From the NCBI GenBank assembly GCA_023700945.1, contig JAMPXY010000008.1:1-38314 (forward strand): a stretch of DNA of 38,314 nucleotides. The letters run 5' to 3'. How positions within the stretch are numbered: position 1 is the stretch's first letter; the number at the start of each line of letters is the position of its first letter. A program made the translations under genes and the position numbers. The notes below the pieces were generated by a model. The model searched no databases. It was not told the DNA's origin and saw only the letters and a program-made list of their open reading frames with translations. Shown piece by piece: positions 2,059 through 29,014 of the stretch. Source of the DNA: Alphaproteobacteria bacterium (GTDB taxonomy: Bacteria > Pseudomonadota > Alphaproteobacteria > Micavibrionales > Micavibrionaceae).

Positions 2059-3282
2059 TCAGGCGGATATCTTGACGGGCTGCCAGGTTTTGAGCAGTTC
2101 AATCACTTTCTGCTCCGGCAGGGGCTTGGCGAAATGGTATCCTTGGGCGGCCTCGCAGCCCATCTGACGCAACAAGGTGGCTTCCTCGCGGGTTTCAACA
2201 CCTTCGGCAATAATATTCAGGCCCATATTCTGCCCGAGGCCAATAATCGATCGTACCAGCTCACGGCTACGGTTATCCCTTTCCATGGCACGAATAAAGC
2301 TTTGATCGATTTTCAAGGTTTCGATCGGGAAATAATAAAGATAGCTGAGTGAGGAATAGCCGGTGCCAAAATCGTCAATTGAAATTCCCATCCCTGCATC
2401 GCGGCAGCGTTGCAGGGTTTCTTTTGCGTTGTCGGGCTGCTGCATCAGCAGGCGTTCAGTAATTTCCAGCTTGATCTGCCAGGGTTTCAGGCCGCTTGCA
2501 GCCGTAGTGCCAACCGTGTTCTCGACGAAATCTGATTCAACAAAATCATGGCTGGAAAAATTGACACTGACATAAAGTTGTTCAGCTTGGCCTAGGGCAT
2601 TTTCCATGCGCTTGAGGGCGGCACACGATTCCTTGAGCGCCCATTTGCTGGCTTCCACAATCAAACCGCTTTTCTCGGCGATGGGGATAAAGATACCAGG
2701 GGAAATAAACCCTTTTTCCGGATGGGTCCAGCGCATCAGTGCCTCAAAGCCAAGCACTGTACCTGCGGCCAGATCGACAATTGGCTGGTAATGCAGTTCA
2801 AGTTGGTCGTTTTCAAGTGCATGTTTGAATTCGTTGGATATCGTGACAGATTCTACGACATCACTTTGGCTGGCGTAGTTTCTTTCCAGTATCTCCGGTG
2901 GTGGTACGGTCGCACTCTCATGCAAAATCTCGGCACGGGTTAAGGTGTCGCGAAAGCGGGTCAGGATAACCTGAGAGATCATTTGAATAACCGGGTCTGA
3001 TGTCTTCAGGCGTTGGGCAAAATCTTCGCGGGTTATTTCCAGCATTTTACAGTCTTTGATCGCACGGACTGTGGCCACTCGTGGACCTTCGTCAACGATC
3101 GCCATTTCCCCAATGATGGTGCCTGGGCCGCGTGTACTGATGACTTGTGATTTACCATCACTGCGTTGGATCAGTATTTCGACCTGTCCTTCTTCGATGA
3201 TATAGGCGCAATCACCCTTCTCCCCTTGTTTCAGGATGATGTCGCCGGCTTGAAACATTCGTCTGGATTGTAGGCCGCTCAT
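2059..3282 (-). CDS. Cyclic-nucleotide-binding domain + EAL c-di-GMP phosphodiesterase
   Basis: A 407-residue cytoplasmic two-domain protein. Residues about 9-115 are a CAP-ED/cNMP-binding domain with the phosphate-binding cassette GEMAIVDEGPRVATV (Glu59, Arg68). Residues about 148-400 are an EAL domain. The residues needed for c-di-GMP hydrolysis are all present: Glu180 in EALMRW, Asn241 in SVNFSS, Glu273 in LEITE, Asp303-Asp304 in IDDFGTGYSSL, Lys324 in LKID, Glu360 in AEGVE and Gln380 in QGYHFAKPL. It should therefore be an active phosphodiesterase producing pGpG, probably gated by cAMP, cGMP or another ligand of the N-terminal domain. There is no membrane segment. It stands alone, facing the FecR surface-protein gene in the same direction with 223 bases between them. 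A role in lowering c-di-GMP to control attachment is a reasonable inference. Confidence 0.92.
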   Translation of the reverse strand: MSGLQSRRMFQAGDIILKQGEKGDCAYIIEEGQVEILIQRSDGKSQVISTRGPGTIIGEMAIVDEGPRVATVRAIKDCKMLEITREDFAQRLKTSDPVIQMISQVILTRFRDTLTRAEILHESATVPPPEILERNYASQSDVVESVTISNEFKHALENDQLELHYQPIVDLAAGTVLGFEALMRWTHPEKGFISPGIFIPIAEKSGLIVEASKWALKESCAALKRMENALGQAEQLYVSVNFSSHDFVESDFVENTVGTTAASGLKPWQIKLEITERLLMQQPDNAKETLQRCRDAGMGISIDDFGTGYSSLSYLYYFPIETLKIDQSFIRAMERDNRSRELVRSIIGLGQNMGLNIIAEGVETREEATLLRQMGCEAAQGYHFAKPLPEQKVIELLKTWQPVKISA

Positions 3283-21589: not shown

Positions 21590-22596
21590 CTGTCTCCTTG
21601 TGGCAGGGGCGGACGTCCCCCCTGTTGCTGTATAATCCGGGCAGCAGCCCCGGTGCCTTGATGGGCGGCCTCAATATAAGGTTTTCCCGCGATCATGCCA
21701 GCAATAAATCCGGCGGCAAACTGGTCGCCCGCCCCGACCGTGCTGACGACTTGCGCGGGGGTCAGATCGGGGCCGGGCACATGATCGATGTTGTTCGGGG
21801 TAATCACATAGGCGCCGTTAGCGGCATTGGTGATAATAAAATCCCGTCCGGTGGCTTGTGCCTTTTCAAAAGCCAGCGCCATGTCATGTTCATCGAACAG
21901 AGCCAGACATTCGTTCATGTTGCCCATCACCAGGACATTGCTGAAACTTAAGCACTGCAGGATCAGGGGGCGCATATTATTGACGATGTCGCGGTCATTC
22001 AATCCCACAATCAGACGCCGCCGGGTGTTGCCATAGGTAATCAGGGCCGCTGCCAGCACACTTTCATCGGGGTGGCACCCGGCCGGGGATAGGGCCATGT
22101 TGGCCTCGATACATATATAGGTGTCGGGTTGATCAGGCAGGGTGGGCAGATCCTGCGGTTTCAGCGCGTAACTGGCGGTATAGTGGCAGACGACAAAACT
22201 ACGTTCCTTGTCGGGGGTCAGCAGGGTCAGGCACACCGAGGTTGTGCGCCCGGCAATACGGTCATTGGGAAACTTGATGCCATAAGGGACAAAAGCTTCG
22301 CGGAAGAGTGCGCCATAGCGATCATCTCCCGTGCGGCCAATGAAAGTTGCAGGCAGACCTTGAGCCGCGAGTCCGCAGAGTAGATTGGCGGTCGAGCCGC
22401 CGGGAATGACCAAAGGGTCAGTCAGACTTTCAAGCAGATAGCCAAGCTTATGGGTGTCAACCAGGGTGGTGACCCCTTTGCCGATGTTATGGGCGTGAAT
22501 AAAATCGTCATCAATATGGGCTATCGCATCGACAAAGGCGGCGCCGATGCCGATGATCAGGGGGGCTGTAGCCCGGTTGTCTGCTGCTTTGTTCAC
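21586..22596 (-). CDS. PfkB-family carbohydrate/nucleoside kinase
   Basis: About 336 residues. PfkB signature 1 is VIPGGSTANLLCGLAAQGLPATFIGRTGDDRYG. Signature 2 is VSTVGAGDQFAAGFIAGMIAGKP with the catalytic Asp in GAGDQF. The N terminus IIGIGAAFVDAIAHIDDDFI resembles the adenosine-kinase-like branch, so a nucleoside or ribokinase-type substrate is likely, but the substrate cannot be read. I prefer the GTG at 22596, which overlaps the repressor stop as GTGA; an ATG at 22626 would give a 34-base overlap. The 3' end overlaps pyrE. Translational coupling on both sides implies equal expression of all three proteins. Confidence 0.88.
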   Translation of the reverse strand: MNKAADNRATAPLIIGIGAAFVDAIAHIDDDFIHAHNIGKGVTTLVDTHKLGYLLESLTDPLVIPGGSTANLLCGLAAQGLPATFIGRTGDDRYGALFREAFVPYGIKFPNDRIAGRTTSVCLTLLTPDKERSFVVCHYTASYALKPQDLPTLPDQPDTYICIEANMALSPAGCHPDESVLAAALITYGNTRRRLIVGLNDRDIVNNMRPLILQCLSFSNVLVMGNMNECLALFDEHDMALAFEKAQATGRDFIITNAANGAYVITPNNIDHVPGPDLTPAQVVSTVGAGDQFAAGFIAGMIAGKPYIEAAHQGTGAAARIIQQQGGRPPLPQGDR

Positions 22597-23243
22597 TGGC
22601 TGACCCAGATAATCCGGGCGATCCACGATATATCATCGACAGGCAGGCTGACGCTGTTGCCGTCAGGGCCCAGCATACGCAGCTCAACCCGGTTGGCGGT
22701 CTGACGGCGCAATTCATGGATCAGAATATCGCCGTGGCGGGTGCGTACCACCACGCGGTCACCACGACGGACATGCGCCTGTGGCGAGGCCACCAGTACA
22801 TCCCCTTCGCGGTAAGCGGGCATCAAGGCATGGCCGATAATTTCGAGTGCGAACAGGTTCTCATCATGAAGGCTGCTCAGGCCGGGAAAATTAAAATCAT
22901 CCCAGCTATTGCCGATGGGGTGCCCGTCGGTTGAGAAGTGTGTGCTTTTTCCAGCCATGGCGGTGTTGATCATGGGAATGGTCTGGCGGCCAGAGCGGGG
23001 GACGTTGTCATCATCCTGACCGATCAAGGCAATAAAATCACTCATGGTCGCACCGGTGACGGCTAGAATTTTGGAGAGGCTTTCGGTGGAGGGCCAGCGT
23101 GGCTTGCCGTCGCTGCTGATGCGCTTGCTTTTGTTAAAGGTGGTGGGGTCGAGTCCGGCTTTTTTGGCCAGCCCCGAGGGTGAATAGCCATGGCTGTCAG
23201 CCAGACGGTCAATCGCCCGCCACATATCGTCATGAGAAAACAT
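22593..23243 (-). CDS. Phage-type HTH repressor with degenerate S24 peptidase domain
   Basis: 216 residues. Residues 6-75 form an XRE-like helix-turn-helix (YSPSGLAKKAGLDPTTFNKSKR). Residues about 128-215 are a LexA/CI-type S24 domain: FALEIIGHALMPAYREGDVLVASP and VRRGDRVVVRTRHGDILIHELRR. At the catalytic positions, the Ser of GDSM-type motifs is Ala139 and the Lys is His176. They are 37 residues apart, the same spacing as the Ser119-Lys156 dyad of E. coli LexA, so autocleavage is not expected. The ATG at 23243 has AGGAG ten bases upstream. It heads the kinase-pyrE operon and faces the phage structural cluster across a 161-base divergent region holding a palindrome; it is the natural candidate to bind that palindrome. 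Confidence 0.88.
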   Translation of the reverse strand: MFSHDDMWRAIDRLADSHGYSPSGLAKKAGLDPTTFNKSKRISSDGKPRWPSTESLSKILAVTGATMSDFIALIGQDDDNVPRSGRQTIPMINTAMAGKSTHFSTDGHPIGNSWDDFNFPGLSSLHDENLFALEIIGHALMPAYREGDVLVASPQAHVRRGDRVVVRTRHGDILIHELRRQTANRVELRMLGPDGNSVSLPVDDISWIARIIWVSQ

Positions 23244-23272
23244 GAGGTTTTTGCTCCTAGGATCACAATCCC

Positions 23273-23312
23273 ATTGTATGCAGCACAAATAAATAGGAAA
23301 TAAATCCTATTT
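23273..23312 (-). promoter_or_regulatory. Leftward promoter of the repressor operon, overlapped by operator
   Basis: On the minus strand TACAAT (23273-23278) is a good -10, followed by a leader of about 25 bases carrying AGGAG. The -35 region (about 23296-23301) is poor and lies inside the palindrome at 23291-23312, so bound repressor would cover it. This suggests autorepression. Confidence 0.5.
23291..23312. promoter_or_regulatory. Palindromic operator O1 in the divergent region
   Basis: AAATAGGA and TCCTATTT are perfect 8-bp inverted arms around AATAAA. The 17-base core ATAGGAAATAAATCCTA is repeated exactly at 27893-27909. The palindrome lies over the -35 region of the leftward repressor promoter and ends five bases before the -35 of the rightward promoter. 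Confidence 0.75.
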
Positions 23313-23346: not shown

Positions 23347-23404
23347 TAGAACATAAAGAGAACACCTGTGTTCCAAACAAGAACAAAAAAGGATAAGAAC
23401 CGTC

Positions 23405-23854
23405 ATGGCCCACCGCGAACCTTATAGTCCCAAACCTTCAACATCTGTGGATACTACGCCTTTTACGACCGCCGAGGAGGCTTGGTTCTGGTTTATTCAG
23501 GCACAGGCCGCCCGCAATGACGGGGCCCGATTCTCGGCCGGGCAGGGGTTGGTCAGTCGCCCGTGCGAACCGATTGACATATTGAAAATTATTGACCGCC
23601 TCTACCGCCAGCGCCGCTTGCTGATCGATCACTTGCTGGTGCTGCGCCATTATGGCCGCCGTTTGATGGCACCCGATGCGCGCCGTCTTAAGGAAGTCAA
23701 GGCGCACAGCCTATGGGTTGAGGCACTGGAGCGCATGACCCCGATTTTTGAGCGCAAGGGTATCGTCCAGACCTTTTCAAGCTGGCATCCGTTTGCTGCC
23801 GATTTTTCCCAACACAATGTTATTCCCTTCAGCCTGACAGGAGCTCTCCAATGA
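23405..23854 (+). CDS. Unknown basic protein, first gene of the phage cluster
   Basis: 149 residues, soluble and rich in Arg. It has a well-structured helical core: TAEEAWFWFIQAQAARNDGARFSAGQGL, then IDILKIIDRLYRQRRLLIDHLLVLRHYGRRLM and KEVKAHSLWVEALERMTPIFERKGI. I recognise no named family. AAGGAT lies upstream of the ATG. It is the gene directly controlled by the divergent operator region and overlaps the next gene by four bases (ATGA). A regulatory or DNA-binding role would suit its position and charge but is only inference. Confidence 0.65.
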   Translation: MAHREPYSPKPSTSVDTTPFTTAEEAWFWFIQAQAARNDGARFSAGQGLVSRPCEPIDILKIIDRLYRQRRLLIDHLLVLRHYGRRLMAPDARRLKEVKAHSLWVEALERMTPIFERKGIVQTFSSWHPFAADFSQHNVIPFSLTGALQ

Positions 23855-26410: not shown

Positions 26411-27139
26411 ATGAGTGATAATTTACTGACTCCCGAGATCGAAGTCGCCGCGAATAAATATGCCGGTAAACCCGCGGCCATCCCTGATAAATTCTGGGAT
26501 GCAGAGACACAGCAAATCAGGGTCGAAGCCTTGCTCGGCTCTTACCTTGAGCTCGAAAAGAAACTCTCCGGTATGATGCCGTCCCCGGATACACCGGATG
26601 ATCGCTTGCGCATTTTGCGGGCGCTGGGTGTGCCGGAAACTGCGGAGGCCTATCAGGTTGATGTCAGTCACGGTTTGTTTGCAGTTGATCCTGACCTCAA
26701 TGGCCGTTTGCATGAACGTGGTTTTACTCCCGAACAAGTACAAATGGTCTACGATCTGGCTGTTGAAAAGATGGTGCCAATGGTCTTGGAACTGGCTGAT
26801 GAATTCAAAGCCGAGCGCGAGGTTGACCGTCTGGTGGCGGCGTTTGGCGGGCCAGAGGCCTGGGCCGAAATTTCGCGCCAGTTGCTGAACTATGGCCAGA
26901 AAAACTTGCCGCCTGAAGTGCTCAGCAATCTCGCCTGCAGCTTCGAAGGGGTGATGGCGCTTTACCGCCTGATGAAAGGTAACGAGCCACTACTGGCGCA
27001 GGAATCTGGTCAAGGGACCTCTGAAAATGCGGGTGAATTGCAATCGATGATGCGTGATCCGCGTTACTGGAAAACCCGTGATCCGGCCTTTGTCGCGCAG
27101 GTGACCGATGGGTTCCGCCGGATGTATGCCGGGCAATAA
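26411..27139 (+). CDS. Capsid assembly scaffolding protein (T7 gp9-like position)
   Basis: 242 residues, acidic and largely helical. KYAGKPAAIPDKFWDAETQQIRVEALLGSYLELEKKL is the usual N-terminal block of podoviral scaffolds. The C terminus LQSMMRDPRYWKTRDPAFVAQVTDGFRRMY is also characteristic and probably contacts the coat protein. Scaffold protein shapes the procapsid and leaves before DNA packaging. The gene has an AAGAAAGGA box before its ATG and is followed by a strong hairpin terminator. Confidence 0.85.
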   Translation: MSDNLLTPEIEVAANKYAGKPAAIPDKFWDAETQQIRVEALLGSYLELEKKLSGMMPSPDTPDDRLRILRALGVPETAEAYQVDVSHGLFAVDPDLNGRLHERGFTPEQVQMVYDLAVEKMVPMVLELADEFKAEREVDRLVAAFGGPEAWAEISRQLLNYGQKNLPPEVLSNLACSFEGVMALYRLMKGNEPLLAQESGQGTSENAGELQSMMRDPRYWKTRDPAFVAQVTDGFRRMYAGQ

Positions 27140-27204: not shown

Positions 27205-27591
27205 CTAGGCTTGCGATTCAGCAAACTCGCTGGCGACCGCATCATCGATCACACGTTGGAAACCCTGACGAATAGTCTGAGTCAGTGGTTCAAACTCCAG
27301 CGCGATCCGGCCATGGGCTTTGCGTACAACCCGGCCACGATGGTGAACATCCAGAATGGTATTACGGACTTTGAATTTCAAGGTGAAGTCGAGCACCTGA
27401 CTGGCACCAAACAGGCGGTCATCCCCGGAGAGTTGCAGTCCACCAAAACTCCAGTCCTCGACCGGAAAGGTGTGACCATAGATAACAACCACACAACGAT
27501 CACTCGCCCGGCGCGGATGACGGCGGCGGGTGGATATGGCATCGTTGCTGGAACTGGATTTTAAGGCGGCGATCAGGTTTTGTAACATCAT
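27205..27591 (-). CDS. PilZ-domain c-di-GMP receptor, inverted inside the phage cluster
   Basis: 128 residues. The c-di-GMP-binding signature is present: the Arg-rich RRRHPRRASDR (RxxxR, around residues 22-32) and DWSFGG (D46-x-S48-x-x-G51), followed by beta strands of a PilZ barrel (LDFTLKFKV, DVHHRGRVVRKAHGRIALEF). The C-terminal helix (IRQGFQRVIDDAVASEF) is typical of single-domain PilZ proteins. It lies opposite to all its neighbours, with its own candidate promoter and a terminator directly downstream, which is the layout of a phage moron. It may modulate host motility or attachment through c-di-GMP. The start could be either of two adjacent ATGs. Confidence 0.85.
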   Translation of the reverse strand: MMLQNLIAALKSSSSNDAISTRRRHPRRASDRCVVVIYGHTFPVEDWSFGGLQLSGDDRLFGASQVLDFTLKFKVRNTILDVHHRGRVVRKAHGRIALEFEPLTQTIRQGFQRVIDDAVASEFAESQA

Positions 27592-27884: not shown

Positions 27885-27913
27885 TTGACACCATAGGAAA
27901 TAAATCCTAGAAT
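27885..27913 (+). promoter_or_regulatory. Strong promoter with operator O2 in its spacer
   Basis: TTGACA (27885-27890) and TAGAAT (27908-27913) are separated by exactly 17 bases, and that spacer contains the palindrome TAGGAAATAAATCCTA (27894-27909, its last two bases entering the -10). The same 17-base core occurs in the divergent region at 23292-23310. A repressor bound here would block RNA polymerase directly, so this promoter is expected to be silent when the repressor is present. Confidence 0.8.
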
Positions 27914-27919
27914 ACTCAA

Positions 27920-28055
27920 ATCAACGCCCGGAGTCTGTCTTGTGCAGAGGCCCTTTAGCGACCGGGCGTTTGGCTTTCCCTGCTTTTTCAAAACTTGTCA
28001 GCGCGGTCAAATAACATCCGCCCCATCGGGACGGATGCTTGGCCGCGTTTTTTTT
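27920..28055 (+). ncRNA. Candidate small RNA or attenuated leader upstream of the capsid gene
   Basis: From the likely transcription start (about 27920) the sequence contains no credible coding frame. It has a first long-range hairpin, AACGCCCGG (27923-27931) pairing with CCGGGCGTT (27962-27970). After a U-rich single-stranded stretch comes a terminator hairpin ending in eight Ts at 28055. The product would be about 135 nt, fully bounded by a promoter and an intrinsic terminator, as in a typical bacterial sRNA gene. The capsid gene starts 126 bases further on and no second promoter is obvious there. The alternative is therefore a leader whose terminator must be read through or antiterminated for capsid synthesis. 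The structure is seen; the function is inferred. Confidence 0.55.
28002..28055 (+). terminator. Terminator with branched stem and T8, upstream of the capsid gene
   Basis: CGCGGTCAA (28002-28010) pairs with TTGGCCGCG (28039-28047) through nine base pairs, one of them G-U, enclosing an inner hairpin CATCCG/CGGATG (28015-28037). Eight Ts follow at 28048-28055. It is the strongest terminator-like structure between the scaffold and capsid genes. Confidence 0.85.
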
Positions 28056-28107
28056 CACGACCGGCGGCCGTTTCCTGACGACAACCCTGTGGCGTGTTTC
28101 GACGGCT

Positions 28108-28180: not shown

Positions 28181-29014
28181 ATGTCGACATCGATCGATCA
28201 GGCGTTCATCAAGCAGTTTGAACGCGAAGTCCACGAATCCTATCAACGTCAGGGTTCAAAATTGCGTAACACCGTCCGCACCATTGGCGACGTTAAAGGC
28301 TCCACCGCCATCTTCCAGAAAGTCGGCAAGGGCACTGCCTCGACTAAATCTACGCATGGTATGGTGCCGGTGATGAATCTCTCACACAGTGCGGTTGAAT
28401 GTCCCTTGCAGGATTATTATGCCGGCGACTGGGTCGATCGTTTGCAGGAACTGAAAATCAATATCGATGAACGTCAGGTGATTGCAAACGCTGGGGCCTA
28501 TGCGCTCGGGCGCAAGACCGATGAACTGATTATTACATCGCTTGCGACTGTGAGCGGCACCCAGGAAGTCAGTGATGCCAATACCGGCATGACATTGGCC
28601 AAGGTTATGACCGCCTTTGAGAAACTGGGCGGGGCCGATGTGCCGGATGACGGTGAGCGTTATGCCGTAGTGGGTTGGAAACAGTGGAGTGAGCTGTTGC
28701 AGATCGATGAATTCTCCAAATCCGATTACATCGGTACTGATGATTTACCTTTCCGTGGCACGCAGGCCAAACGCTGGCTTGGCACGTTGTGGATGCCGCA
28801 TTCAGGGTTGCCGGTCGATGGTGACGATATCCGCTCCTGCTTCTGGTATCACCGTACGGCGGTAGGTCATGCGGCAGGGTCCGATGTGCAGACCGATATC
28901 AGTTGGCACGGTGATCGTGCTGCTCATTTCGTCAACAACATGATGAGTCAGGGCGCTGCGCTGATCGATGATACCGGTATCGTCGAGATCAAGTGCGACG
29001 AAACACCGGATTAA
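28181..29014 (+). CDS. Major capsid protein
   Basis: 277 residues. Pattern of phage coat proteins of this group: MSTSIDQAFIKQFEREVHESYQRQGSKLRNTVR at the N terminus, VGKGTASTKSTHGMVPVMNLSHSAVECPLQDYYAGDWVDRLQELKINIDERQVIANAGAYALGRKTDELIITSL in the middle, and WHGDRAAHFVNNMMSQGAALIDDTGIVEI at the C terminus. It occupies the T7 gp10 position after portal and scaffold. An HK97-like fold is expected but not readable directly. CGAGG eight bases before the ATG sets the start. It has its own leader with promoter, operator and terminator upstream. Confidence 0.88.
   Translation: MSTSIDQAFIKQFEREVHESYQRQGSKLRNTVRTIGDVKGSTAIFQKVGKGTASTKSTHGMVPVMNLSHSAVECPLQDYYAGDWVDRLQELKINIDERQVIANAGAYALGRKTDELIITSLATVSGTQEVSDANTGMTLAKVMTAFEKLGGADVPDDGERYAVVGWKQWSELLQIDEFSKSDYIGTDDLPFRGTQAKRWLGTLWMPHSGLPVDGDDIRSCFWYHRTAVGHAAGSDVQTDISWHGDRAAHFVNNMMSQGAALIDDTGIVEIKCDETPD

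Follow-up and report, generated by a model that had tools for sequence, protein, structure and literature searches.

The late promoters of the lambdoid phages lambda and 21 (pR'-tR', acted on by Q) combine a protein site in the promoter spacer, a special transcript start and a terminator within about 200 nt, with the structural genes lying beyond. Hairpins that carry an asymmetric internal loop and are read by protein at a terminator are known from the BglG/LicT antiterminator RNAs. Closer in host to the present case is the gene transfer agent (GTA) of Caulobacter, a domesticated, repressor-controlled alphaproteobacterial phage with a long untranslated leader and a terminator to bypass, in which GafY, GafZ and IHF take part (PMC11150451); GafZ antiterminates, and its putative DNA element lies between the -10 and -35 positions (PMC11150451, PMC6606751). 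Podovirus-like head genes in a host-packaging element are found in FpGTA of Faecalibacterium, described as the first podovirus-like GTA-like element (PMC12946183).

The locus reported here, the leader region of a major capsid gene in a stretch of Micavibrionaceae DNA of 38,314 nucleotides (the window), resembles each of these systems in part. It has the lambdoid order of parts, but its spacer site is a putative repressor operator, no -10-like pause hexamer stands at +1 to +7, the terminator bears a conserved internal loop, and a counterpart of Q is at present a candidate. Compared with the BglG/LicT RNAs, the loop has another sequence and sits inside the terminator itself, and no BglG-type gene was noted in the window. 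Where the Caulobacter GTA relies on GafY, GafZ and IHF (PMC11150451), the present element has T7-type (podovirus) head genes, apparent S24/CI and LexA-type control, and a structured RNA leader; among the window genes annotated here, none was noted to encode a GafZ-like protein. FpGTA belongs to an unrelated host, and no such leader is seen in the accessible part of its description (PMC12946183); the likeness to it lies in the podovirus-like head genes and, putatively, in the packaging of host DNA. A literature search for Micavibrio GTAs or leaders of this kind found none.

The element and its gene neighbourhood

The features of the window to which we refer are as follows.

22593-23243, minus strand: S24/CI-like repressor gene, divergent from the structural operon (PF00717, 4.7e-11; phrog_4 transcriptional repressor, 3.1e-14)
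23258-23309, unstranded: putative repressor operator pair, 23258-23273 and 23294-23309, 36 bp apart
23349-23363, plus strand: LexA-type box GAACATAAAGAGAAC, upstream of the structural operon
23405-23854, plus strand: first gene of the structural operon, encoding a conserved protein and antiterminator candidate (AlphaFold2 core pLDDT about 97)
26411-27139, plus strand: scaffold or capsid assembly gene (PF05396, 1.4e-10)
27205-27591, minus strand: PilZ-domain gene between the scaffold gene and the leader (PF07238, 8.6e-05)
27885-27913, plus strand: sigma-70-type promoter of the capsid transcript, TTGACA-N17-TAGAAT (11 of 12 consensus bases)
27894-27909, unstranded: operator palindrome TAGGAAATAAATCCTA (TAGGA-N6-TCCTA) in the promoter spacer, putative S24 repressor site
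27920-27940, plus strand: conserved initial transcribed sequence ATCAACGCCnnAATTGYRTCT (from column information over 50 promoters)
27923-27970, plus strand: P1, a long-range 9-bp stem of 27923-27931 with 27962-27970 in the minimum-energy fold
28000-28055, plus strand: M1, terminator hairpin with internal loop AUAA 28011-28014 / C28038 and T8 tail 28048-28055
28066-28086, plus strand: M2, the M1 loop with its strands swapped (G-GC-C...G-ACAAC-C), 95 nt ahead of the capsid start
28181-29014, plus strand: major capsid gene, to which the leader belongs (PF19821, 1.2e-81; phrog_3437, 2.9e-70)

The genes surrounding the leader are T7-type (portal PF12236, PF05396, PF19821, tail proteins and a T7-type terminase), and they adjoin ordinary host genes. 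No replication or integration gene was found among the ORFs searched from 22.6 to 38.2 kb, several of which were unmatched, the window ending just after the terminase. As had been read from the DNA letters, the unit lies between the scaffold and capsid genes, although an opposite-strand PilZ gene also intervenes and is kept at this position in most loci. A further gene of the window (2059-3282, minus strand) joins an EAL domain to a cyclic-nucleotide-binding domain; its product and the PilZ gene raise a possible link to cyclic-di-GMP.

The best 80 bacterial loci encode capsids of 69-94% identity and belong mostly to Micavibrio-type Alphaproteobacteria and Azospirillum. Within the order, the capsid was present in 62 of 91 genomes, mostly as a single copy. 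PBP2 was used as the host marker for tree comparison because PurL, the marker rejected, exists in the order as two unrelated types; capsid and PBP2 trees agreed with a Mantel r of 0.49, where the null reached at most 0.29, and had 8 splits in common, where the null gave no more than 2. Such agreement, together with presence in about two thirds of the genomes, would be expected of a domesticated prophage or GTA passed on largely vertically. Gene content and phylogeny mark the element as a prophage of T7 type that Micavibrio-type Alphaproteobacteria have inherited largely by descent, and it is probably a podovirus-type GTA. Azospirillum loci (L157-L168) share this capsid cluster and type of leader. 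From Azospirillum, mitomycin-induced particles carrying random host DNA of about 10 kb were reported and assigned to other genes (PMC3899980).

Searches returned no close DNA match in phages. Among free phages and viruses with related capsids, M1 was absent ahead of the capsid gene in Pelagibacter phages Hodr and HTVC034P, Vibrio phage 1.254.O, virus SI2 and a gut phage contig; Hodr has just 39 nt where the window holds the PilZ gene and the leader. Because these free relatives are without it, the leader seems tied to the chromosomal, domesticated lineage.

Promoter, operators and transcript start

The near-consensus promoter and the palindrome in its spacer, both claimed beforehand, are present. 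In an 18-kb scan the promoter was among the two best of 20 promoter-like sites (mean of 13.4 sites in shuffles). Within the control region of the repressor gene the palindrome appears twice more, exactly at 23294-23309 and with one mismatch at 23258-23273. Of 36 relatives, 35 have operators of this sequence in the interval that separates the repressor gene from the structural operon, 21 of them as the exact 36-bp pair, and the repressor gene heads the structural operon in relatives too. The S24/CI-like protein is thus likely, judging from shared operators and gene order, to be the repressor acting at the capsid promoter, and the repressor control that had been proposed from the palindrome is supported and gains a plausible agent. 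Of 20 aligned sequences, 14 keep the S24 catalytic Ser/Lys pair, which the window copy has lost (GHAL, IHEL); the window repressor may not be inducible by self-cleavage. A LexA-type box (GAACN7GAAC) was found in 31 of 36 relatives against 0.6% in shuffles, and since it is conserved upstream of the structural operon, the element looks SOS-inducible.

Fifty of the 81 capsid-upstream regions examined hold this operator-bearing promoter, and the distance from -35 to operator is constant in 48 of these 50. Column information across the 50 promoters is high over positions 1-21 of the initial transcribed sequence and about zero from position 23; the likely transcript start is 27920, the A of ATCAACGCC. 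The conserved start includes a pause-like core, TGYR, at positions 15-18, with no -10-like hexamer. Some relatives (L097, L107 and L138) keep M1 and M2 where the capsid promoter and the 21-nt start block are absent, so the parts of the leader are separable. Chance falls far short of explaining why promoter, operator, the initial 21 nt and the hairpin recur ahead of the capsid gene across dozens of genomes.

Another contig of the same genome (C92:10954; L176 around 1501) carries a second operator-bearing promoter with closely similar first transcribed bases, ahead of a LamG-like, perhaps tail-fibre, gene, an arrangement that suggests a second member of the regulon. Genome G042 (L294) has an intact promoter and leader ahead of a decayed capsid gene.

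Folding and conservation of the leader RNA

The leader (27915-28060) folds at -51.9 kcal/mol (z -2.5 against shuffles), and its minimum-energy fold includes the 9-bp long-range hairpin that had been predicted, P1, whose region folded alone gives z -1.8. M1 folded alone reaches -29.9 kcal/mol (z -5.5), a value equalled by none of 200 shuffles. The sequence-only reading had described a branched terminator hairpin ending in T8; the strong hairpin and its T8 hold, and the branching gives way to one stem (28000-28049), interrupted by a 4x1 internal loop and a one-base bulge. The window M1 scores 31.2 bits against the covariance model and is the sole strong copy in the 38 kb. M2 is weak in the window, with 4 inner pairs and 1 outer pair; in relatives it lies 40-90 nt ahead of the capsid start codon.

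Conservation of both stems and of the T-run among relatives had been set in advance as the test of the unit, and the parts fared differently. The M1 stem is kept, with compensatory changes. P1, with at least 7 bp, occurs in a minority of relatives (12 of 50) and was rejected as a universal feature of the leader. A U-tract directly follows M1 in 24 of 37 copies, compared with 24% of background positions.

Comparison of about 80 relatives gave, in many of them, a common M1 architecture of outer stem, ANAAC, inner hairpin, GC and outer stem. Its core is an ANAA/C internal loop of fixed sequence flanked by G-C and C-G pairs. Stem complementarity at GANAAC sites was 450 against 186 ± 15 when 5' halves were swapped among loci (z about 18), and for M2 it was 425 in relatives against 277 ± 12 in shuffles (z about 12). 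In 22 aligned copies from relatives, all 14 of the M1 pairs, in both helices, had changes on both sides, and 84% of alignment cells paired (54% in shuffles); the observed covariation was reached by 0 of 500 shuffles, and sliding the partners abolished the signal. Since these 22 copies had been preselected for stems of at least 3 pairs, the complementarity test at GANAAC sites is the fairer of the two. The M1 covariance model gave 38 matches in 883 kb, and 36 of these lay no more than 260 nt ahead of a capsid gene; among the 18 matches outside the training set, 16 fell in this interval, which makes up 1.2% of the bases searched. M1 was found on other alphaproteobacterial contigs as well. A whole-genome search with the RNA model failed to recover the known window copy and is uninformative on further copies.

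The window and 12 relatives gave no Rfam match above the gathering threshold, and the suhB (suhB/mmgR) family was rejected at 18.6 bits against a threshold of 41. An ANTAR-type double hairpin was also rejected: there are no conserved six-base end loops, the end loops of M1 vary freely, and the constant bases sit in the internal loop. Comparative analysis strongly supports the M1/M2 leader as a structured RNA, one that Rfam does not contain. A constant loop within variable stems points to recognition by a factor.

Probable termination and read-through into the capsid gene

An intrinsic terminator soon after the transcript start is present in the window and in the 24 M1 copies with a U-tract, and a terminator-like site was found in 25 of 50 leaders (14% of shuffles). 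In about one third of relatives no clear U-tract follows M1, and termination is therefore not common to all of them. The earlier observation that no other capsid promoter is evident before 28181 extends to the relatives, in which promoter-like sites between M1 and the capsid gene occur in 3 of 81 upstream regions (10% in shuffles). The roughly 135 nt said to be without a coding frame hold no plausible frame (27920-28055), and no conserved small ORF was found in the leaders, any Shine-Dalgarno sequence plus start occurring in 2 of 61; leader-peptide attenuation was rejected for want of such an ORF. Taken together, the U-tract enrichment, the terminator-like sites, the missing later promoter and the missing leader peptide make a regulated terminator the best interpretation of M1. 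A small RNA and an attenuator had been offered on equal terms; we favour the attenuator or leader over a free small RNA because M1 invariably sits right before the capsid gene, no promoter intervenes and the U-tract is not universal. The conserved internal loop and its second copy, the conserved first 21 nt and the domesticated-prophage nature of the element were beyond what a reading of the letters could show.

On these grounds we think it fairly probable that the unit is the leader at the 5' end of a domesticated T7-type phage's capsid operon, acting as a regulated terminator that sets read-through, and the conserved layout of its parts suggests that the leader probably decides whether capsid protein is made. 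The S24 repressor would hold the capsid promoter off. After induction, RNA polymerase would start at 27920, may pause near +17, and would then either stop at M1, leaving a leader RNA of about 135 nt, or continue into the capsid gene. Read-through would be set by a trans-acting factor, most likely a protein recognising the ANAA/C loop in M1 and M2, or else by an antiterminator loaded at the promoter. The short RNA would then be mainly stopped leader and not an independent small RNA.

The role of a promoter-loaded antiterminator is central to a different explanation, Q-type processive antitermination, in which the leader would be pR'-tR'-like and a Q21-like product of ORF 23405, loaded at the promoter-proximal pause, would cause M1 and later terminators to be ignored. 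The order of parts matches that of lambdoid late promoters and of the Caulobacter GTA with GafZ (PMC11150451, PMC6606751), and positions 1-21 are sharply conserved, with T-G-Y-R at 15-18. The Q21 likeness of ORF 23405 was suspected from its sequence ahead of any fold search, and Q21 proved the best solved-structure match of its model (Z 6.2, rmsd 3.9 over 93 residues, followed at 4.5 and 4.1 by sigma region 4 chains), although a Z of 6.2 can reflect a common helical arrangement. Comparing ORF 23405 by profile with eleven proteins of the Q21 family gave no match, however, and a Foldseek search alone returned nothing significant, so that the modelled protein is best called a candidate Q21-like antiterminator. 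Moreover, the ORF is also retained at loci whose capsid promoter no longer has the 21-nt block, the fixed ANAA/C loop is left unexplained, and the spacer palindrome is accounted for by the repressor; we do not favour it as a Q-type element, as the same palindrome forms the repressor's own operators. We therefore judge Q-type control unlikely. Doubtful, yet a contender to be taken seriously, is a post-transcriptional element in which M1 and M2 would bind a capsid, scaffold or host protein that controls translation or stability of the capsid mRNA, termination being incidental: the loop is more constant than the U-tract and is present near the ribosome site in either strand order, but the U-tract is enriched straight after M1, and M2, well upstream, does not cover the ribosome site.

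A small RNA that acts independently, in trans, on other genes would fit the complete promoter-to-terminator unit of the window; it is made improbable by the constant position of the unit just upstream of the capsid gene with no further strong copy in the window, by a terminator that is not universal, by a capsid gene with fewer candidate promoters of its own than shuffles give, and by the freely variable sequence between the conserved parts. We consider it very improbable that the locus is simply a repressed promoter followed by a long untranslated region, its leaky terminator being a phage relic. Operator and repressor would suffice for on/off control without any RNA-level step, but covarying stems with a constant internal loop persist across genomes of 65-94% capsid identity, and selection on the RNA is needed to keep them.

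Returning to the regulated terminator, we propose tentatively, and with rather less than even confidence, that it represents a new class of RNA control, in which an ANAA/C loop present twice in opposite strand orders would be read by a protein or ligand and would gate capsid synthesis, and thereby suicidal particle release, in an ancient SOS-linked podovirus-type GTA of predatory alphaproteobacteria. The leader is a structured RNA linked to a single gene and to the domestication of a phage. Should it gate the output of capsid, a lethal particle factory would be held under three layers of control, namely the LexA-type box, the S24 repressor and the RNA leader. The findings point to an unreported T7-type GTA candidate across Micavibrio-type bacteria and Azospirillum.
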